The position numbers and the translations under genes are program-made. Shown in pieces: positions 19,479 to 50,593 of a stretch of DNA of 50,593 bases. Each line of letters begins with the position of its first letter. Position 1 is the stretch's first letter. The stretch is from contig NZ_JAESIH010000072.1 of NCBI RefSeq assembly GCF_016756745.1, positions 1-50,593 of the forward strand, read 5' to 3'. The notes under the pieces were generated by a model. The model was not told the DNA's origin. It saw only the letters and a list, made by a program, of their open reading frames with translations, and made no database searches. This stretch comes from Aminivibrio sp. Its GTDB lineage: Bacteria; Synergistota; Synergistia; Synergistales; Aminobacteriaceae.

Positions 19479-20249
19479 ATGATGTTCTCGAGGAAAATGA
19501 AAGTGTGTCTTGCGGCCCTCGGACTGCTTTTGGCGGCCTCCGCCGCTTGCCCGGGTGAGGTGGATCCGGTGCTCGTCAGGATCACGGGATCGTCAGTGAA
19601 TATTCGGTCCGAGGCTTCCAGGACGGGAAAAGTGATCGGCCGCTTCGCGGGGGGAGAGCCGGCCGTAGTGCTCCGGGAGAAGCAGGATGCCGATGTCTAT
19701 CCATGGCTCCTGGTGATCGCCAGGGTTCCATGGCCGGACGGTCCCGTGGTGGAGGGGTGGGTCTACGGCCGGTACGCGGAACCCCTGCCCCAGGGAGAGT
19801 GGCTGGGGAATCCGGCAGGGGCCCAGGGGAGAGCCTTCAACGCTTTTTTCCTTGCCACCAGGGAGCGGTTCGGCAGCACCGCCGAAGAGGCGGTGATGAA
19901 GCTGGGAAAACCGCTTTCCCGGAACGACCGGGAGGTAGCCGGTCGGCATGACCCGTCCTACATGGTGACCTTTACCGATCTGTCCTACCCGGGCCTCGAA
20001 CTCCGGTATTTCTCCACGAAGGACAGCAGGGCCCTCATAGGGGCCAGGGTGACGGACGGGGACTACGTCCTCGGCAGGTCAGTCCGTCTGGACGCGTCGC
20101 CCCGGGAGGTCTATATGGAGCTCGGTCCGCCCCTGTTCCAGGACGGGACTGTCTTCGGCTGGTCAGACGAGGCTGAGTACGCTACGCTGCAGGTGACTTT
20201 TTCCGGGGGGAAGGCACTCCTGGCGGATTTTTCCGTGGAACCTGACTGA
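19479..20249 (+). CDS. Exported SH3-domain protein of unknown function
   Basis: The 256-residue protein has a signal peptide (KMKVCLAALGLLLAASAACPG) and then a bacterial SH3 domain at about 28-100 (ITGSSVNIRSEASRTGKVIG, GWVYGRYAEPLP). Such domains usually bind peptidoglycan or peptides. The rest (105-256; FNAFFLATRERFGSTAEEAV, DLSYPGLELRYFS, VRLDASPREVYMELGPP) is a domain I do not recognise. ATG 19479 follows AAGGGG. Its position 87 bases upstream of the giant exported protein, with a terminator between, suggests a related envelope role. Confidence 0.8.
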   Translation: MMFSRKMKVCLAALGLLLAASAACPGEVDPVLVRITGSSVNIRSEASRTGKVIGRFAGGEPAVVLREKQDADVYPWLLVIARVPWPDGPVVEGWVYGRYAEPLPQGEWLGNPAGAQGRAFNAFFLATRERFGSTAEEAVMKLGKPLSRNDREVAGRHDPSYMVTFTDLSYPGLELRYFSTKDSRALIGARVTDGDYVLGRSVRLDASPREVYMELGPPLFQDGTVFGWSDEAEYATLQVTFSGGKALLADFSVEPD

Positions 20250-20255
20250 TTCGGC

Positions 20256-20290
20256 AGCGGCCCTTTCTTCGGAGGGGTCGCTTTTTTCTT
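20256..20290 (+). terminator. Likely intrinsic terminator after the SH3 gene
   Basis: AGCGGCCCTTTC pairs imperfectly with GGAGGGGTCGCT around a TTCG-type loop, followed by T6. It separates the SH3 gene from the next gene. Confidence 0.6.
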
Positions 20291-20336: not shown

Positions 20337-23300
20337 TTGAAGCGATTCCTTTTTTCCGTCCTGGTACTTCTGGCAGTTCTTTCTCTCTGTTGTGCAGGAT
20401 ACGCCGCCCCTTCAGACCGGGAGAACAGCTACTGGCTGAAAATCAACCCTATCGGCAGGCCGCCGGCACAGCCTTCGGAGACCTACAATCTTCTCGAGTC
20501 GAGGCTCCGGAAAGTGCCGGCCGGCGACCTGGACGGCATGGATTTTTTCCGGTCTCTCGGCAGGGACGGCATGACCATGAGAGACGTGATGGCCTTCAAG
20601 GAGGAGTTCATCCGCCTTCGGGGCGAGGAGCTGCGGAAGACGGGAGCCCTCTCCCCGGTGGACGCCCTTCCCGGAGCCCTGGAGGCATGGGAGCGGGCCT
20701 TCGGGGAAGCGGAACGGTCCCTCATGGACGTGCGGCGGAAAGGGGTCGAGCGGGCCTTCGCCGAGGGGGTCCGACGGTACAGGGACGCCCATCCCGATTT
20801 TCCCTATCTCGTCCGCATGGACGCCGGGGCGTCGTCCGGAGAATCCTACCAGGAGCTCCGGTTCGAGGGGGACATCGACATCTCCACCCTGGCGGCCCAG
20901 GTGGAGAACGCCGCTGCCCTCAGGGATTTCATCGCCTCGGCCGTGCGGGACAGCTTCAACCTGGACATGACGGCTCTGGACGCCCTGGTGACCGCCCACC
21001 GGCAGGCCGCCCTCGACGTGTACATCACCCAGCCCGCCGCGGACTGGGCGGAGGCGGACTCTCTCAAAAGGGGACGGCTGCAGGAGATCGTGATTGAAAA
21101 CGGTGAGGTGGGCTACCGGGATGTCACCGACCCGGTGGAGCGGGTCTTCATCTTCGCCAACCTGAAGAACAACATCCGGATGAGGGACGGCGCCCCGGAC
21201 GAACTCGTCCGGCTCATGGACGAGCCTCCCGACAGGATGACCTCGGACATGGAGCCGGCAGTGAGCCTGGAGATGCTCCGCCATATGACCACCGACGCCC
21301 TGCAGGCACGGCTCGCCTACCACGAGAAGATCCTCAAGCTGGCGAAGTACGTGGACCGGAGCGCCGCCATCGCAAAAGGCCCCCTCGGCGATACGGCCCT
21401 GGCAGCCTGGGCCCGGCAGGTGACCCTGGTGAAGCAGAACAAGGGGCTGGACGGCGGGCAGAGGCTGAAGCGCATCCTGGAGATCAGCGAACCGCTCCTC
21501 GGGGATCCCCGGGACTTCGCCGGTCTCGACAGGGCGATCCTCTCCCTCGGGGAGCGAGCTTCCGCCCTGATCCGGGACAACGTGGCGAAGGGTATCGACG
21601 CCCGGCTGAAGCTCATCGACGATGCCCGGACCCCTGCGGAAAAGGACGGGGAACGGAGGAAGCTGCTCTCGGAGCTCGAGGAGACCTTCAGGGCCTACGT
21701 GGAGAAGGGGGTGGACTTCCCCCCGAAGGCCCACGAGACCATGATCGCCCTCGCCGACTCCCTGAAGGTGACGGTGCTCAACATCCCGGCGTCGGAGCTT
21801 GAACGGATGAAGCGCTACCTTGATCTGGCCGCCGAAAAGCCCGGCTCCCTCGACCTGGCTCTCGGTATGGCATGGAGCCTCTTCGAGGGAGCCTACTCTA
21901 CCGCCGACGGGGCGATCGACGCCTTCAACAACTGGATTGACTACCTCGACAACCACACGGTGGCCCGTCTCCGGGCCATGAACCCGGAAGTGTTTCTTCC
22001 CGGCCCCGGGGGAAAGACCAGGGCGGTAACCATACCCATCGGCAGGATCAACGACCGGCTCAACGCCTCCATCCTGGGCGCTGTGGGGAACTCTCTCCCC
22101 TTCAAGGCCGTCAACCTGGGCCAGGAACTCTACGCCTACGTGAGCGGCTTCAGGGAGGGGAAGGACATGTCCGAATCGGTGTCCAACGTGGCGACCGAGC
22201 TCTTTCGCTCCCGGGTTCCCGGAGGCGATATTGTTGAAGCCGCGGTCATGGAGAATTACACCAGGGCGGCCATCGGCGTGGTCTATCTTCTCTTCCCCAC
22301 CCTGGCCGTCCCCGAGGCCCTGTACGGCATGGGAACCGCCGCCGCCGAGTGGTATGTCGGCGCCTGGCAACAGTGGCAGTACGACGAAATGGTGGATGAA
22401 CTGTACGACGGAACGGTCTTCGAGCCGACCCGGGAGGGGACATGGAAGGTGAAGTCAATAACGTACAGCCTTCCCGGCGGAGGATCGGTCACCGTGGGGC
22501 GGGACGAGGCCTTCACCCTGCCGGAACGGGTGCCGAAGATCTCCAACATCCTGGTGCCCCAGGTGAGAACCCACCCGTCCATCGCCATGTACCACGAACT
22601 CCTGGCGAAGAAGGAGCTCTCCGACGGGCAGAGCGGCATCCCCGCCTGGCCCCGGAGATACCTGAACCTCAGCCTGTACGGGGAGCGGATGTATGAGAAG
22701 TACGTCTCGGAGGTAAAAACGGTGACCCGGCAGTACTTCGCCGAAGTCATCGCCGAACTGGAAAAACGGAAGGCCTTCGACCAGGGAACGAACGAAAAGA
22801 AACTGCGGGAGATCGGAGAGGAACTGGGCTGCGGCGACTCCCTCCTCGAAAAGGTCGGAAGCGGACGGGAAGCCCAGGAGGCGGTTATCGCCCATTGGGA
22901 GGAGTGGCTGAAGGTCCATGCCGCCCTTATGGAGTTCCGGGAGCGGTGGAGCGCCTTTTTCATCCTGACGCGGAAGCCGTCCTGCTCTCCCGAATCGATA
23001 CGGATCGTCCTCGAAGAGGACCGGAAGGATCTTGAGGAGGCGAAAAAGGCCCTCCGGGAGGCGGCCGTCGCCGTGGAGGAGATCGTCGGCCGATCCCGGG
23101 CCGATGAAAAGACCCTGCAGCCCGCCGTCCGGGCGAGGGCGGGGGCCCTGATCTATCCCTCGGGTAGCCCGGAGCGGCGCCGGATGATCGGCGAATACAG
23201 GGAGTATCTCGAATCCCTCCGCAGCAGGCAGACCCCTCCCGGGGTGCGGATTTCAGGTCCGGACACCGTGGGCGAGGGGATGGAAGAGGTTTTTACGGTT

Positions 23301-26300
23301 GTCCTCGACAGGGAGCTTCGGTCGGCCAGGTACGACTGGAAGTTCGCCTCCGGCGGCGACGGGGAGGTCCTTGAGGGGGGCACAACGTCCCGCATCCGGT
23401 GGGCTCCCTCTTCCCCGGGAAAGAAAGTCCTGGAAGTGCATGTCCTCGCCGATCTTCCCGGGGCCGACTGGGTGCGGGCCGTTCACCCGGTGACTGTCCT
23501 CTCCGCTGAGGAGACACCCCGTCCCGAAGTACGGCTGACCTGCCCCGTGAACTCCTTTTCGGCGGGGGAAGTAGTACCTCTCACGGCGGAGACGGAGGAG
23601 TTCGGCCTTGGAGGCGAGGGATTCGAATGGTACATCTGGTTCGCGGACGGGAGGCGGATCGCCTCTACGGCGGAAAGGACCATATCGTTCGACGGCGTGG
23701 GCTACGAAGGGCGGACCGTGGAAATCCGGGTGGAGGCCCGGACGAAGAGCCGTTTCGTCTCGGCGTCAGCCCTTTCCCTGGAGGTCCTGCCTCCCGGAGG
23801 AACCGGAGGAGATCTCCGGGTCCTGCTCGCGCCCGATATTACCGAGGTCGCGGCCGGAACACCCCTTCGCTTTTCGGGTACCGCCTTCCCGAGGAAGGGC
23901 GGCGGGACCCTGAAATACCAGTGGTCCGTCAACGGGGAATTTGCCGGGGACGGGGACGTCCTTCATTTCGACACGGCCCCCTGGGAGGGAAAGACAGTGG
24001 AAATCGTCTTCTACGCCGCCCAGGTCCTTGACGGGACGGTGCTCTTCGAGGGATCGGCGTCCCGGAAGATCTCGGTCGTGAAGGAGACCCCGCTGGCCGT
24101 GGCGCTGGAACCCCACCCGTCGAAGGTGGACGACACGGAAACGATCCGGCTCGCCGTGAAGGATCCCCGGGACGGCGTGGAGTACGAATGGCAGGAGTGG
24201 GACAGCGTCTCCCGAAGATGGAGTTCCGGAGCCGCCGTCGCGGGGAGACGGCTGGTGAAGTCCGCCAGGGGCCTGACTGGGCAGTCTTTCAGGTTCCGGG
24301 TGACCGCCCGGGACGGCAAGGGGCGGACCGCTTCCGCCGAGTCGGGGCTCATCGAGATCACGGAGCCTTCCTGGCCCGGTCCCGAAGAGGAGGAGCCAGT
24401 CCAGGACAAAGAGAAATCAGATCCTGACCCGGAAAAGAAGGACGATGAAAAGGCGGTCGTTCCCGGGGACGCCGGAGAAGGACCGGGAAAGGATGGAGCG
24501 GCTGAAAACGATGGAAAACTGAGGCTCGAACTTCCGGCGACGGTCATGGAGGGGGATATCGTGACGGTGAAGGCCCTGCTGCCTCCCGGCATGGCCGAAC
24601 AGGCTGCCGACTCCTTCCGGTGGAGCAGCGACCCCAGCCAGGGACGACGGTCTTTCGTCATCCTCGGCGAGACCGTTGGGGGAACCGACGGCTTCGGCGG
24701 CGGCGGGGGAGAACGGACCGCCCGTCCCGAGACGGAGATCCAGTTCACCCCCCATCAGAACACCCGTGGCGTGAGGGGAAGTGTGGGCGTCACCGTCTAC
24801 CGAAAACTGCGGGGGAACCAGAAGGGAGCCCCCATGGAATCTCTCGCCGAAGTGTACAGCCCCGTGGAGGTCATTCCCATGGGCTGTTCCGTGGCCGCCC
24901 CTGCCTCGTGGGCTGGAGGCCCCAACGAGGAGGGGGTGCTTCTCACCCTTGACGAGGACACGCCCCGGGGAAGCGTGCGGGGGGAGTTCCTCCTGCAGAT
25001 CGGCACGTGGAGGGGGAGGACCCTCGAATCGGTGGAGAAGCAGGTGGTGACCAACAATCAGTACGGAACCTTGGAGAGGGTCACCGTGGACGGCTACGAG
25101 GGATACCTCGCCGCGACAGGCCCGTCGTATAGCATCAAACGAACCCCTGACGGCCGGTTCGTGACCGGTGGCCAGGTCGTGCTGAACGGCCTGGCGATCA
25201 AGGGAGAGGCGGCCCTCGACTTTCGCTCGGAGATCAAGTTCTTCCTCGCTGAAGAGAAGATTCCCGAGAGCGACCCCGAGACGGCCCGGTTCGCCCGGGA
25301 GCTCATGTCGCAGCTCCGGTCCATTCTGGCGAGCATCCGGGTGGTCCCTGACCCGAAGCGGACCACGGGACCGGCGGACGGGGCAGGGGAAGAGAAAAAG
25401 GACGTGGCCGTGACACTCCGCAGGGTGAGTCCTCCGGCGGGTCCCGTGACCGCCGGAACGCCCGTGGAATTCCTGGCGACGGCGGAGGGAGTGAAGAAAG
25501 GAGACGTGTTCTTCCGGTTCGAGCCGTCCACGGAGGTTTCCTTCTCCCCTCCGGAATCGGAGGCGGGACGTACGAATGCCGTCTTTTCCGAGCCCGGCAC
25601 GGTGCGGATCTGGGCCGTAGCCCTGGACAGGGACGGCACCCTGGGAGAATCGGAACAGGTCGAAATAGAGGTGACGGGCCCTGACCTGACCATCACCGCC
25701 ACGCCCCCGAAACCGAAGGTGGGGCAGGAGGTGCAGGTGAAGGCCGAGGCGAAGCCCGGACTGCCGGAAGGGGCCTCCGTCGTGTGGGCCCTGGAGGGAA
25801 ACGCCTCCCGCAGCGGGGCGAGAGCCGCAGATTCTACGGAATACTCCTTCCTCCCCAGGGAGGCGGGACAATACGTCCTGAAAGCGGAGGCCAGAAGTCC
25901 GGGAGGGGAGACCCTGGCGGAGAAAACGCTGGCCGTGGAGGTGGCAGGGTACGACGTGGTCGTGACGATTCACGGTCCGGCGGGCCCTCGTCCGCAGGAA
26001 TGGGTGCAGGGGCAGGGCCTCCGGACCGTGGAAAAGGACACCTTTTTCCGGGACGAGCACGTCCGGGTGAAGGCGGAGGTGAAGGACCCCGGTGCGCCGA
26101 AGGACCTCCGGTGGAAGTGGATCCCGGGGCCGGAGACGTCTCTTGCGTCGTCGGGCATCGGGCAGGAGGCGACCCTGTACGGCACCGCCGCCGGAACGGC
26201 ATCCGCCCGGGTGGAAGTGCGGGATAAAGAAGACCTTCTTTTGGGAGCGGCTTCCGTTTCTTTCCCCGTGACGGAGCTGCCCCCCGAGTTGAAGGCTCCT

Positions 26301-28949
26301 CCCCTGAAGGGGGTTGTCAGGGCGGACCCGGAGCCCGGGACGGTGAACGGGAGGATCGCCCTCTCCGCCTCAGGGGAAGGAGGCACGCCCCCCTACACGT
26401 TCCGGTGGGGAGGCCCGGTCACGGGATCGGGGGATATCCTCACCTTCATTCCCGGCCGGCCGGGGACGTTCCGTTTTACCCTGCTGGTCCAGGATTCGGC
26501 CGGGCGGCAGGTCACGGTGAACCGGGATGTGGAGGTGAAGCCCTTCGCGGTCACCCTGTCCGGCCTTCCTCAAAGGGTGGTTCTCGGAGAGACGGTCTCC
26601 TGCCGGGTGGACTACCCCCTCTCGCCTCCGGGATCGAAGGTGAACCGGTCGCCGATGCCGCGGATCCGCCTCTCCGGCAGCCCGGAAGTGCGGTGGAACC
26701 CCGCGGAGGGAACGGGACCCGGATTCATCGGCAGGGCTGCCCGGACAGGCGTCGCGGACATCCGGGCCGAAGTGCGGGGGGCCGGAGGGGTGGTGCTCGG
26801 CGTCTCTGACCCGGTGCAGGTGACGGTGGACACGCCGGACCTTTCCCTGGTACTCCCGGAATACGTGACCCCGGGCGACAGTTTCCGGGTCTCCCTGGAA
26901 CTCCCGCCAGGAGTGAACGCAGACGAAATCTTCGATTTTGACTGGAAGGCAGCCTTCCCCGCCAGCCGGCAGTACGGCCGGAACGGAGGAAGCGCCCTCG
27001 TCGGTCCCGTGAGCGGGCTCGACCCCGTCCCGGTGTCGGTCGCCGTCAGGGACAAGGGTGGAAAAACGGTGGCGGAGCTTTCGGGGTCCGTCCCCGTACG
27101 GCCCCTGGACATTACCGTCAGGGTTCAGGCCTTCTCGGAGAGAGGGCAGATCGTGCTGCCCGACGGCCGGGTGGACTATCCTCCCCGGGAGGAATGGATC
27201 GAAGGGCAGACGGCCGCATTCAAGGCCTTTGTCTCCCCCGCGAAAGCCGTGACCTGGGAATGGTCCGTGACGGGGCCCGGAAAGATCGGCCACGCGTCAT
27301 GGGACACAGCCTCGGTGACTTTGAACGGAACGGGTTCCCTTGTCGTCACGGTCGTGGCGAAAGTGGGGGGGAAAGAAGCGGGCCGGGCGGAAGTGACCCT
27401 TCCTGTGACCGTGGCAAAGAGCAAAATCCAGGCGGCACGGGAGTACCAGGCCGGGCGGAACGAGTGGAACGCCGCCCGCCGCGACCGGGCGGTCACCCTG
27501 ATGGAGAGGGCGGCTTCCCTGGATCCGGGCAACCCCGCCATCGAGAGGGAGCTTGCGCGGATGAAGGGCGAGGCGGAAAAGTCCAGGGCCGAAGATGCCC
27601 GGAAGCGGGCCGTTGAGGTCTGGAACCAGGCCGCGGAACTCCAGAAGAAGGAGAAATATGAGGAGGCCCTTGAAAAATACCGGGAGGGCTTGAAAATCGA
27701 CGACGACAAAGCCGTCCGTGATCACGTGAAGAAGCTCGAGGGCTTCATTGCCGACCGGAAACGCAGGCAGGAGCAGGCCGCGGCCGATGCCCGGGCCAGG
27801 GCTGAGGCTGTCTGGCGGCAGGCGGCGGAGCTGCAGAAAGGGAAACAGTACGAAGAAGCCCTTGGGAAATACAGGGAAGGCCTCGCCATCTCCCCGGACC
27901 CGGTTGTGGAAGAGCACGTCCGGAAGCTGGAGGACTATATCGCCGGGATGAAGAGTGCGGCGGAAGCAAAGAAAACTGCAGCGGCACCTTCGTCCGGCGG
28001 AAGGAAGGACTCGGGGGCGGAAACGCCGGCGAAGAGTTCAGGAACCCCACCAGCCGATACGCAGCAGCATTGGGGAGGGTGGAAGAGCTTTACCCTCGCC
28101 GGAATCCGGTACGAAATCCCGGCAGGGGGCTTCCAGAGCGTGAAAAGCTCCTCGGGGAAGGAGAACGGGAAATATCCATTCTCCAATTACGATTATTACG
28201 TGAACGGCAAGCGGGTGGCCATTGTCCGCATCGGCACCCTGGCGCCGGGGCTCACCGACGGCAAAATCAAGGGGCTCTACACCGGGAAGACGGCCAACCG
28301 GATCTTCGATTCCCTCTCCGGCGAGGGAACTCTGACGCTCGGCGGCAGAAAGGCCTACTACCTTTTGGGCAGCGCCCCCGGAGTGACCCGGAAGTTCTAC
28401 TTTGTCGCCGACGGTGCGGAGGGCGGGATGGGGGCCTACCTTCACGTGGTGGCCGGCAGTGGGAGCGGCTGGAAAAAGTACGCCCCCATGTTCGAGGAGA
28501 TTGCCGGGAAGATGTCCTTTACGGCGGGAAAAACTCCTCCGTCGCAGGGCGGGGCGGACAAGGGGGCGGGGACGCTGCCCCCGGGCTGGAAATCAGTGAC
28601 CATAGGGAACGTTACCTTCGGGATTCCGTCTTCATGGAACGGGAAGACAATGAAGGAACATGACGTGGAACAGCTTCACGTCTACTGGCAGGGAAGTTTC
28701 GACAACCCGGTTCACGGCGTCTCCGGAGGGGTGACCAGGAATTACGGGGAGGCGAAGAAGGATCTCCACGGGGCCCGGACGGTTTCCCTCGGAGGGACGA
28801 AGGTGCTCCGGGCGGACGAGGACGGAGCGGTGAACCTCCTCTTCCCGCCCATGGGCAGCAACAGGGGCGTGGCCCTCGTCCTCTTCCGCGGAAAGGGCGG
28901 AAAACAGGAAACCCTGGAGGCCATACTGAAGACGGTCACGGTGAAGTAG
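20337..28949 (+). CDS. Giant exported multidomain protein (helical N-terminus, Ig/PKD-like array, TPR-like repeats, paired C-terminal domains)
   Basis: The gene encodes 2870 residues. TTG 20337 is the start: CGGAGGT lies six bases upstream and a signal peptide follows (FLFSVLVLLAVLSLCCAGYA). Residues about 40-960 are helical and charged, with a hydrophobic stretch near 642-675 (GVVYLLFPTLAVPEALYG). From about 968 to 2360 come beta-rich Ig/PKD-like segments, e.g. starts at 1062, 1160, 1252, 1690, 1782, 1992, 2069, 2168; the 1992 one has GGTPPYTFRWGGPV. An acidic linker (1343-1393) interrupts. Residues 2361-2541 hold two near-identical repeats (AAELQKKEKYEEALEKYREG and AAELQKGKQYEEALGKYREG). 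Two PsbP/DcrB-like domains end it (from 2580 and 2747; WKSFTLAGIRYEIP, WKSVTIGNVTFGIP). A related segment occurs near 1514-1680. Function unknown; likely periplasmic or surface. Confidence 0.88.
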   Translation: MKRFLFSVLVLLAVLSLCCAGYAAPSDRENSYWLKINPIGRPPAQPSETYNLLESRLRKVPAGDLDGMDFFRSLGRDGMTMRDVMAFKEEFIRLRGEELRKTGALSPVDALPGALEAWERAFGEAERSLMDVRRKGVERAFAEGVRRYRDAHPDFPYLVRMDAGASSGESYQELRFEGDIDISTLAAQVENAAALRDFIASAVRDSFNLDMTALDALVTAHRQAALDVYITQPAADWAEADSLKRGRLQEIVIENGEVGYRDVTDPVERVFIFANLKNNIRMRDGAPDELVRLMDEPPDRMTSDMEPAVSLEMLRHMTTDALQARLAYHEKILKLAKYVDRSAAIAKGPLGDTALAAWARQVTLVKQNKGLDGGQRLKRILEISEPLLGDPRDFAGLDRAILSLGERASALIRDNVAKGIDARLKLIDDARTPAEKDGERRKLLSELEETFRAYVEKGVDFPPKAHETMIALADSLKVTVLNIPASELERMKRYLDLAAEKPGSLDLALGMAWSLFEGAYSTADGAIDAFNNWIDYLDNHTVARLRAMNPEVFLPGPGGKTRAVTIPIGRINDRLNASILGAVGNSLPFKAVNLGQELYAYVSGFREGKDMSESVSNVATELFRSRVPGGDIVEAAVMENYTRAAIGVVYLLFPTLAVPEALYGMGTAAAEWYVGAWQQWQYDEMVDELYDGTVFEPTREGTWKVKSITYSLPGGGSVTVGRDEAFTLPERVPKISNILVPQVRTHPSIAMYHELLAKKELSDGQSGIPAWPRRYLNLSLYGERMYEKYVSEVKTVTRQYFAEVIAELEKRKAFDQGTNEKKLREIGEELGCGDSLLEKVGSGREAQEAVIAHWEEWLKVHAALMEFRERWSAFFILTRKPSCSPESIRIVLEEDRKDLEEAKKALREAAVAVEEIVGRSRADEKTLQPAVRARAGALIYPSGSPERRRMIGEYREYLESLRSRQTPPGVRISGPDTVGEGMEEVFTVVLDRELRSARYDWKFASGGDGEVLEGGTTSRIRWAPSSPGKKVLEVHVLADLPGADWVRAVHPVTVLSAEETPRPEVRLTCPVNSFSAGEVVPLTAETEEFGLGGEGFEWYIWFADGRRIASTAERTISFDGVGYEGRTVEIRVEARTKSRFVSASALSLEVLPPGGTGGDLRVLLAPDITEVAAGTPLRFSGTAFPRKGGGTLKYQWSVNGEFAGDGDVLHFDTAPWEGKTVEIVFYAAQVLDGTVLFEGSASRKISVVKETPLAVALEPHPSKVDDTETIRLAVKDPRDGVEYEWQEWDSVSRRWSSGAAVAGRRLVKSARGLTGQSFRFRVTARDGKGRTASAESGLIEITEPSWPGPEEEEPVQDKEKSDPDPEKKDDEKAVVPGDAGEGPGKDGAAENDGKLRLELPATVMEGDIVTVKALLPPGMAEQAADSFRWSSDPSQGRRSFVILGETVGGTDGFGGGGGERTARPETEIQFTPHQNTRGVRGSVGVTVYRKLRGNQKGAPMESLAEVYSPVEVIPMGCSVAAPASWAGGPNEEGVLLTLDEDTPRGSVRGEFLLQIGTWRGRTLESVEKQVVTNNQYGTLERVTVDGYEGYLAATGPSYSIKRTPDGRFVTGGQVVLNGLAIKGEAALDFRSEIKFFLAEEKIPESDPETARFARELMSQLRSILASIRVVPDPKRTTGPADGAGEEKKDVAVTLRRVSPPAGPVTAGTPVEFLATAEGVKKGDVFFRFEPSTEVSFSPPESEAGRTNAVFSEPGTVRIWAVALDRDGTLGESEQVEIEVTGPDLTITATPPKPKVGQEVQVKAEAKPGLPEGASVVWALEGNASRSGARAADSTEYSFLPREAGQYVLKAEARSPGGETLAEKTLAVEVAGYDVVVTIHGPAGPRPQEWVQGQGLRTVEKDTFFRDEHVRVKAEVKDPGAPKDLRWKWIPGPETSLASSGIGQEATLYGTAAGTASARVEVRDKEDLLLGAASVSFPVTELPPELKAPPLKGVVRADPEPGTVNGRIALSASGEGGTPPYTFRWGGPVTGSGDILTFIPGRPGTFRFTLLVQDSAGRQVTVNRDVEVKPFAVTLSGLPQRVVLGETVSCRVDYPLSPPGSKVNRSPMPRIRLSGSPEVRWNPAEGTGPGFIGRAARTGVADIRAEVRGAGGVVLGVSDPVQVTVDTPDLSLVLPEYVTPGDSFRVSLELPPGVNADEIFDFDWKAAFPASRQYGRNGGSALVGPVSGLDPVPVSVAVRDKGGKTVAELSGSVPVRPLDITVRVQAFSERGQIVLPDGRVDYPPREEWIEGQTAAFKAFVSPAKAVTWEWSVTGPGKIGHASWDTASVTLNGTGSLVVTVVAKVGGKEAGRAEVTLPVTVAKSKIQAAREYQAGRNEWNAARRDRAVTLMERAASLDPGNPAIERELARMKGEAEKSRAEDARKRAVEVWNQAAELQKKEKYEEALEKYREGLKIDDDKAVRDHVKKLEGFIADRKRRQEQAAADARARAEAVWRQAAELQKGKQYEEALGKYREGLAISPDPVVEEHVRKLEDYIAGMKSAAEAKKTAAAPSSGGRKDSGAETPAKSSGTPPADTQQHWGGWKSFTLAGIRYEIPAGGFQSVKSSSGKENGKYPFSNYDYYVNGKRVAIVRIGTLAPGLTDGKIKGLYTGKTANRIFDSLSGEGTLTLGGRKAYYLLGSAPGVTRKFYFVADGAEGGMGAYLHVVAGSGSGWKKYAPMFEEIAGKMSFTAGKTPPSQGGADKGAGTLPPGWKSVTIGNVTFGIPSSWNGKTMKEHDVEQLHVYWQGSFDNPVHGVSGGVTRNYGEAKKDLHGARTVSLGGTKVLRADEDGAVNLLFPPMGSNRGVALVLFRGKGGKQETLEAILKTVTVK

Positions 28950-29030: not shown

Positions 29031-29495
29031 TGTCGTCCTGATGAGCGGAGCGAAGAAGGATCTCGGGGTTGGTTCTGAGAGTCCATAAAGGCGAGATCCT
29101 TCCCTCGCCATGCCCGGGATGCTCCGCGATCGCTCCGCTTAATCTGTCGTCCTGATGAGCGGAGCGAAGAAGGACCTCGGGGTTGGTTCTGAGAGTCCAT
29201 AAAGGCGAGATTCCTTCCCCTCGCCATGCCCGGGATGCTCCGCGATCGCTCCGCTTAATCTGTCGTCCTGATGAGCGGAGCGAAGAAGGATCTCGGGGTT
29301 GGTTCTGAGAGTCCATAAAGGCGAGATTCCTTCCCCTCGCCATGCCCGGGATGCTCCGCGATCACTCCGCTTAATCTGTCGTCCTGATGAGCGGAGCGAA
29401 GAAGGACCTCGGGGTTGGTTCTGAGAGTCCATGAAGGCGAGATCCTTCCCTCGCTATGCCCGGGATGCTCCGCGATCACTCCGCTCAGGATGACA
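29031..29495. repeat. Four tandem copies of a ~116-bp palindromic repeat
   Basis: Units start at 29031, 29145, 29261 and 29377 (114, 116, 116 and 119 bp) and are nearly identical. Each begins TGTCGTCCTGATGAGCGGAG and the last ends CTCAGGATGACA, so the array has inverted ends. Each unit also contains complementary GGATCTCGGGG and GCGAGATCCTT-type parts. Short open frames across it are repeat artefacts. It fills the gap between the giant gene and the Sel1 gene. Confidence 0.93.
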
Positions 29496-29510: not shown

Positions 29511-30530
29511 TTATTTCACGTTCCGGTACTTCATGTACTTCAGCGGGTTTATTTTATAGAGCTCCCTCTGGGCGTAGGCGAGGTTCTTCGCCGCCGCCTG
29601 CTCCAGGAGACTGATTCCCTTCCGCTCATCCTTCGGTATACCCCTGCCCTGGTAGTAGACCATGCCAAGATAGGCCATGCCGAGGGGAGATCCCTTGTCG
29701 GCGGCCTGCTTGTACCAGTAGAAGGCCTTCTCGCGGCTGAAGACCGCACCCTCGCCCCTTTCGTAAAGGACTCCCAGGTTCACCATGGCATCGATGAACC
29801 CGTTCTTTGCCGCCTCGTCGAACCAGTAGAAGGCTTTCATGGCGTCTTTGGGGCGCCCGAGCCCCTTGTAGTGGATGAGACCAAGGCGGAACTGGGAAAA
29901 AGCCCTGTTTTTCTGGGCGGCCTGTTCATACCACCGTGCGGCCTCCCCATAGTCAGGTTTTCCGAGGAAGTCTCCATAGTAGAGATGCCCGAGCTGCTCC
30001 GCGGCGGGGGCATACTTTTCCCGGGCCGCCTGGAGGAAGAAATCCCGGGCTTTTTTGAAGTCCTTCGGCGTTCCTTCGCCTTTTTTGTACATGATCCCCA
30101 TGTTGTACTGGGCCACGACGTGGCCTTTCGCCGCCGCCCGGCCCCACCATTTGAGCGCTTCGGGGAAGCTCTGGGCCGCCCCGTTCTCTCCCTTGTACGC
30201 GTTCAGCCCCATGCGGTAGAGCTGATCCACGGTATAAGACGGTTCCTTGGGCTCCGCCTTTGGTTTCGGTTTTGGCTTGGGCTTCTGGGCCGGTTTGGGC
30301 GCCGGTTTCGGCTCAGGCTTTGGTTGAGGCGCCGGTTTTAACTCCTCCTCCGGTTTTTTTGGTTCCGGGGGCTCCTCTCCGAAGACGGGGGGCGGGGGCG
30401 GGGCGATCTCCTCTTCGTCTCCGGGAAGAGGAGGCGGGGTGAAGGCTGATGAGGGAAGGGCCGTGAAGAGCGCGACCCCGAGAAACAAAAGGAAGAGAAT
30501 AAGCGCTCCGGTTCTACTGCGTTCGGTCAT
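29511..30530 (-). CDS. Exported Sel1-repeat protein with proline/lysine-rich linker
   Basis: The 339-residue protein has a signal peptide or anchor (GALILFLLFLGVALFTALPS) and then a proline/lysine/glutamate stretch (30-100) of the kind that spans periplasm or wall. About six Sel1-like repeats follow, e.g. AAAKGHVVAQYNMGIMYKKG, GLIHYKGLGRPKDAMKAFYW and YLGMVYYQGRGIPKDERKGI. Sel1 repeats are helical scaffolds for protein contacts. ATG 30530 is preceded by CGGAGG. It faces the giant gene tail-to-tail across the repeat array. Partner unknown. Confidence 0.88.
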   Translation of the reverse strand: MTERSRTGALILFLLFLGVALFTALPSSAFTPPPLPGDEEEIAPPPPPVFGEEPPEPKKPEEELKPAPQPKPEPKPAPKPAQKPKPKPKPKAEPKEPSYTVDQLYRMGLNAYKGENGAAQSFPEALKWWGRAAAKGHVVAQYNMGIMYKKGEGTPKDFKKARDFFLQAAREKYAPAAEQLGHLYYGDFLGKPDYGEAARWYEQAAQKNRAFSQFRLGLIHYKGLGRPKDAMKAFYWFDEAAKNGFIDAMVNLGVLYERGEGAVFSREKAFYWYKQAADKGSPLGMAYLGMVYYQGRGIPKDERKGISLLEQAAAKNLAYAQRELYKINPLKYMKYRNVK

Positions 30531-50163: not shown

Positions 50164-50593
50164 TGTCATCCTGAGGCCGGCATCTTGGCCGAAGGATCTG
50201 GTACTTCTTGTCATTCTGAGGGCGAAGCCCGAAGAATCTCGGTCTTGAGGGGCAAGACCAACCCCGAGATCCTTCCCTCGCTGTGCTCGGGGTGCTTCGC
50301 GATCGCTTCGCTCAGGACGACAGAAAGGGTGTCATCCTGAGGCCGGCATCTTGGCCGAAGGATCTGGTACTTCTTGTCATTCTGAGGGCGAAGCCCGAAG
50401 AATCTCGGTCTTGAGGGGCAAGACCAACCCCGAGATCCTTCCCTCGCTGTGCTCGGGATGCTTCGCGATCGCTTCGCTCAGGATGACAAAAAACAAGGCC
50501 TCAGGTCGACAGGCTTTTGTTTGTCATCCTGAGGCCGGCATCTTGGCCGAAGGATCTGGTACTTCTTGTCATTCTGAGGGCGAAGCCCGAAGA
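50164..50593. repeat. Tandem palindromic repeat array, running off the window
   Basis: Units of about 159 bp start at 50164 and 50330, and a third, cut by the window end, at 50522. Each begins TGTCATCCTGAGGCCGGCAT and ends CTCAGGA(T/C)GACA. The interior contains complementary pieces (GAATCTCGGTCTTGA with CAAGACCAACCCCGAGAT). The ends are shared with the arrays at 29031 and 18019. Bases 50031-50163 hold nothing I can assign. Confidence 0.92.

Follow-up and report, generated by a model that had tools for sequence, protein, structure and literature searches.

What is the role of a protein of 2870 residues, predicted to be exported, in which a long helical head is followed by Ig/PKD-like segments, TPR-like repeats and PsbP/DcrB-like C-terminal domains? 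The question is raised by a single 8.6-kb frame in a stretch of 50,593 nucleotides from Aminivibrio sp. (Synergistota), called the window here. An earlier note on this DNA, made from the sequence alone, knew of no named family with this order of domains, and Pfam and NCBIfam hold none either. The coordinates of the gene, its parts and its neighbours are collected in Table 1.

Table 1. Features of the giant gene and its surroundings; positions refer to the window, residues to the 2870-residue product.
Feature	Position	Strand	Basis
Giant gene, product of 2870 aa	20337..28949	+	uninterrupted frame, TTG start, GGAGGTG upstream
Predicted Sec signal peptide, residues 1-24	20337..20408	+	hydropathy 2.44 at 4-22, AxA-type site by eye
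N-terminal module, residues 25-960	20409..23216	+	mostly helical in weak AF model, family-specific
Hydrophobic stretch, residues 642-675	22260..22361	+	KD 1.75 at 644-662; inside residues 601-700
Span C832-C883, possible disulfide	22830..22985	+	invariant Cys pair
First Ig/PKD block, residues 961-1346	23217..24374	+	PKD fold, hhalign-related segments
Acidic E/K/D/P-rich linker, residues ~1347-1394	24375..24518	+	sequence
Ig-like segment, residues 1395-1511	24519..24869	+	hhalign to segment I11, E 5.7e-5
Segment 1512-1684	24870..25388	+	PsbP/DcrB relation not supported, hhalign E 0.12-0.61
Second Ig/PKD block, residues 1685-2360	25389..27416	+	Pfam PKD; common to Synergistota Ig+TPR proteins
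TPR/MIT-like helical hairpins (2361-2560) and low-complexity linker	27417..28058	+	model pLDDT ~88
First C-terminal Mog1p/PsbP/DcrB-like domain, core 2579-2731	28059..28568	+	Foldseek, VIA
Second C-terminal domain, residues 2745-2870	28569..28946	+	weak hhalign relation; low-confidence model
SH3b-domain protein, 256 aa, exported	19479..20249	+	upstream neighbour; SH3_3 E 2.7e-5
Intrinsic terminator in the SH3/giant gap	20256..20282	+	12-pair stem, then T run
Sel1-repeat protein, 339 aa, exported	29511..30530	-	convergent neighbour; Sel1 E 3.6e-44, six stretches
Tandem array, 4 x 116 bp	29031..29485	.	in the giant/Sel1 gap; not present in G002

A single gene under purifying selection

The frame is a real gene under purifying selection, and the claim that it is uninterrupted was borne out. 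It runs through all 2870 residues without a stop and begins with TTG behind the ribosome-binding site, where the congeners G001 and G002 have ATG. GC3 of the gene is 0.81 compared with a GC of 0.63 for the window. Against G002, dN was 0.049 and dS 0.286, corresponding to a dN/dS of 0.17; residues 300-700 of the protein yielded values of 0.07 to 0.09 in the same comparison. Furthermore, the frame is intact in homologues down to about 50% identity, with 57% in G098 of another genus and 53% in G182 of another family.

Of 188 Synergistota genomes, seven matched the N-terminal 957 positions at a level clearly above chance. These were the genome of the window, three of the four other members of the genus, G098, G182 and G180, the latter belonging to the same family as G182 and showing 48% identity over its cut-off piece. 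Six further genomes gave short matches with E-values from 0.002 to 0.9. A scan of GTDB contigs, conducted with two peptide patterns that remoter relatives could escape, returned five relatives, all of them Synergistaceae MAGs. On a second G182 contig we found several TPR hairpins together with an F5/8C-like domain, which stayed under the cut-off (E 1.6e-5), and, by eye, a PsbP-like domain. This contig probably carries the continuation of the giant protein of G182; because the two pieces overlap yet differ in sequence, their junction is one that we infer. In the literature searched there was no description of giant or PKD proteins of Synergistetes that matched this protein.

The N-terminal module

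A signal peptide had been claimed for the N-terminus and agrees with our reading by eye of a predicted Sec-type signal, in which the hydrophobic residues 4-22 are followed by the cleavage site AGYAA^PSD; a lipobox is absent. The remainder of the head, residues 25-960, was largely helical in the AF model, as anticipated by the figure of about 920 helical residues in the earlier note. Since the model had a pLDDT of 59.7 and a pTM of 0.31, we claim no fold for this module. Pfam, NCBIfam, PHROGs, PADLOC and the PDB contained no relative of it, nor did plasmids, phages and IMG/VR; the PDB search with the N-terminal profile produced a chance match only (E 0.74). In Foldseek and VIA searches with the N-terminal model the Ig part alone stood out, the head being barely tested by a model of such low confidence.

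The best conserved 100 residues, 601-700, were 74% identical to G098 and 69% to G182, with a dN/dS of 0.07. They enclose the hydrophobic stretch already noticed at about residues 642-675, which we found at 644-662. In the alignment across genera and families the invariant stretches of the module include HPDFPY, LRFEGDID, FANLKNN and EKGVDFPPKA, and Cys 832 and Cys 883 were present in all four sequences compared (G000, G002, G098 and G182).

A reading of HPDFPY...GS/GA...FEGDID...DVYI as a nucleotidyltransferase motif found no support. When the part around the DxD (NTP_transf_2) was compared with eight PF01909 proteins from the genus, hhalign returned an E of 0.32 and a P of 0.2 from a shallow alignment; the AF model was poor in this region.

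Ig/PKD blocks, TPR hairpins and C-terminal domains

The Ig/PKD-like segments proposed for the middle of the protein, roughly eleven by the earlier count, include at least one PKD fold, because residues ~965-1057 aligned with 4jrw at a VIA-align Z of 10.7 (rmsd 2.2 over 85). In addition, Pfam PKD matched residues 2290-2342 over its cut-off (E 4.7e-9), and several of the Ig segments were related to each other by hhalign. Thus the giant protein carries the tandem PKD or Ig folds that define PKD/Ig-like repeat proteins. It has the PKD fold in common with secreted proteins of this type, e.g. with the PKD domains of collagenases; unlike these it has no recognised peptidase or other catalytic domain. 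The acidic linker is present as described. A third PsbP/DcrB-like segment, suggested for residues 1514-1680, was not supported by hhalign against the two C-terminal domains (E 0.12 and 0.61).

The TPR region was modelled confidently as helical hairpins. Both TPR_2 (E 1.8e-5, 25 bits vs a cut-off of 27) and MIT (E 1e-5, 26 vs 30) remained under their cut-offs. The two 68-residue repeats located here had been called near-identical, which was an overstatement: the identity between them is 62% in an alignment of 60 residues.

The Mog1p/PsbP fold was recognised in the first C-terminal domain, the core of which was matched by Foldseek to PsbP (1v2b) with an E of 2.5e-5 and by VIA to 2xb3 with a Z of 12.6 (rmsd 3.2 over 133) and to 3hlz with a Z of 13.6. 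Neither DcrB (PF08786) nor PsbP was matched in Pfam by the whole protein or by its C-terminal stretch. The fold is that of PsbP, DcrB, LpqN and EagR/SciW; unlike in those proteins, it makes up one small part of 2870 residues. The second C-terminal domain was weakly related to the first (hhalign E 3e-4, P 39, 18 columns) and probably has the same fold. Thus, of two related PsbP/DcrB-like domains claimed earlier, one is established by its fold, while the other is linked to it by this weak relation. The number and kind of these domains differ between lineages: there are two, or one as in G001, where the first is deleted, or an F5/8C-like domain plus one as in G182. Such variation is as expected for swappable binding modules.

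Related proteins of the Synergistota

The Ig and TPR part of the giant protein was matched in 64 of the 188 genomes, in many of them via TPR alone. Exported Ig+TPR proteins that lack the head of the giant are widespread in the Synergistota. They include proteins of ~640-650 and ~1480-1500 residues, in which, like in the giant protein, Ig-like segments precede TPR hairpins. One relative of 1047 residues, from G016, was 31% identical to the giant protein over residues 1693-1979 (E 3.4e-22). Yet the Ig+TPR proteins are encoded at a different locus and lack the 930-residue N-terminal module, and those of the two size classes that we read also lack the C-terminal PsbP-like domains.

At two loci (L079, 3-7791, and L080, 2352-10378) the genes of a ParA-like ATPase and of a small protein lie between those of two exported Ig+TPR proteins, the first of ~650 and the second of ~1500 residues. 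The small protein starts with 'RPSLKDYLxTG' and occurs in 61 of 188 Synergistota genomes including that of the window. There, contig C73 (L122, 2871-6925) encodes a ParA-like ATPase and a small 'SLKNYLSTG' protein adjoining an 889-residue ORF on the opposite strand; an Ig+TPR pair beside ParA is absent from the stretch of this contig that was read. Elsewhere in the same genome (contig C45, L029, 8648-17614) five adjacent genes encode proteins of 757, 906, 304, 404 and 621 residues, several with signal-like starts. The 621-residue protein is a BNR-type propeller. The 757-residue protein, like the giant an exported one, combines a DcrB-like segment, seen by eye at its N-terminus, with NHL repeats and the TPR module of the giant protein; its DcrB-like segment showed a weak profile relation to the giant's C-terminal domains (E 0.011).

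Genomic neighbourhood

The giant gene is flanked by genes of an exported SH3 and an exported Sel1 protein, as previously described, although the SH3_3 match is slightly below the Pfam cut-off. Orthologues of the SH3 protein are 78-80% identical in three congeners and, at the same location, 48-51% in genus g8. The terminator hairpin and T run between the SH3 and the giant gene are also found in G001, G002 and G004; thus the two genes do not form a simple operon. Orthologues of the Sel1 protein are 66-69% identical in g8 and 45% in G182. In the tandem array between the giant and the Sel1 gene three of the four units are 96-100% alike. In G002 the two genes are ~42 bp apart, and this short spacer contains a perfect inverted repeat. 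The window has another tandem array at 50164-50492, where a unit of 166 bp occurs twice.

The order SH3, slot, convergent Sel1 was also found in two genomes of genus g8. The conserved order extends to a preceding GntR gene in G038 and to the MCP and aminotransferase genes next in line in G037. In g8 the slot holds an exported TPR protein of ~190 residues, whose repeats are 58% identical to the TPR of the giant protein, so the TPR part alone can fill it. In G034 the SH3 gene and the beginning of a mini TPR gene are followed by the end of the contig. In G182 the Sel1 gene is convergent with the piece that probably encodes the C-terminus of the giant. Since Sel1 and the giant are neighbours in two families, loss of the front part of the giant in g8 is favoured over its gain elsewhere. 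On the other hand, G098 carries the giant gene with neither neighbour. Conservation of the neighbourhood, which had been proposed as a check, therefore holds for part of the relatives.

Discussion

From the observed frame with its conservation and purifying selection, the one PKD and one C-terminal fold and the synteny, we favor the view, at slightly less than even odds (about 45%), that the giant protein is a periplasmic or surface scaffold of the envelope, exported by the predicted Sec signal. Such export would take it to the periplasm or the cell surface, where the family-specific helical head may supply a specific activity or contact to a partner. The two Ig/PKD blocks would act as a spacer, and the TPR hairpins and the Mog1p/PsbP-like module may dock other envelope proteins or peptides. 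An extracytoplasmic location fits the signal peptide, the Ig/PKD spacer and the conserved cysteine pair. The scaffold reading also draws on the confidently modelled TPR hairpins and the PsbP-like fold, on the TPR module found again in the 757-residue protein, on the many headless Ig+TPR proteins of the phylum and on the C-terminal domains that vary by lineage; the weak profile relation to the DcrB-like segment of the 757-residue protein counts against it. The adjacent SH3b protein, which is of the peptidoglycan type, and the Sel1 protein would be plausible partners. The earlier note had likewise proposed an envelope or surface machine with these two partners; the gene order kept in g8 and the Sel1 gene next to the giant in G182 speak for this part of the proposal, while the missing neighbours in G098 and the terminator behind the SH3 gene speak against it and are weak points of the scaffold as well. 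Further weak points are that no anchor was recognised in the protein and that the strongest constraint lies in the N-terminal module, the role of which the term scaffold does not explain.

The same constraint speaks for an enzyme. In the main rival explanation, possible but distinctly less probable to us than the scaffold, the 930-residue module is an enzyme whose substrate lies in the envelope or outside the cell, and the Ig, TPR and PsbP parts hold the module in position. No other part of the protein is as well conserved between genera and families; the module has long invariant stretches, and its dN/dS falls to 0.07. Yet searches of Pfam, NCBIfam, PHROGs and the PDB detected no enzyme family, and the nucleotidyltransferase-like DxD reading was not supported by the profile comparison. 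The many Ig/PKD segments, the F5/8C-like domain of the G182 homologue and the secretins encoded in the genus, through which a route of export past the periplasm may exist, would also suit a surface adhesin or contact protein on a long Ig stalk. We consider this unlikely, because no anchor or surface-sorting domain (SLH, lipobox, barrel or sorting signal) was recognised in the giant protein, although SLH proteins occur in the genus. Moreover, TPR and PsbP-like domains usually serve as adaptors inside the cell or in the periplasm, which argues against a stalked adhesin.

Least probable by a wide margin is a membrane-inserting, toxin-like effector, in which residues 642-675 would enter the membrane. 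The hydrophobic stretch does sit in the best conserved part of the protein, and EagR and SciW, which are chaperones of effector transmembrane segments (PMC7773334), have the same fold as the C-terminal domain. However, the uninterrupted hydrophobic run comprises ~11 residues flanked by charged and proline residues and thus falls short of the length of a normal transmembrane helix, and a shared fold shows no function. A check for polymorphic toxins gave no match to a toxin family and, for Imm45, at best a non-significant E of 0.043, with SH3 and Sel1 as the neighbours; neither a toxin domain nor an immunity gene nor a secretion tag was found. Hence the adhesin or membrane-interacting effector that had been suggested at the outset received no direct support.

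A bolder reading, which we regard as rather doubtful, would make residues 25-960 a new, large exported domain, found in few Synergistaceae, with a fold of its own and a specific envelope activity. The giant would form one envelope complex with the SH3 and Sel1 proteins, and in a related genus the core of this complex could be reduced to a small TPR protein. For the contribution of the front part of the giant protein the mini-TPR protein in the slot of g8 is the natural comparison.

In our best reading the giant protein is a lineage-restricted variant of the modular exported Ig/TPR proteins, with the N-terminal module as its unexplained part. It defines a lineage-restricted module of 930 residues, exported according to prediction and without detectable relative, that is maintained under purifying selection.
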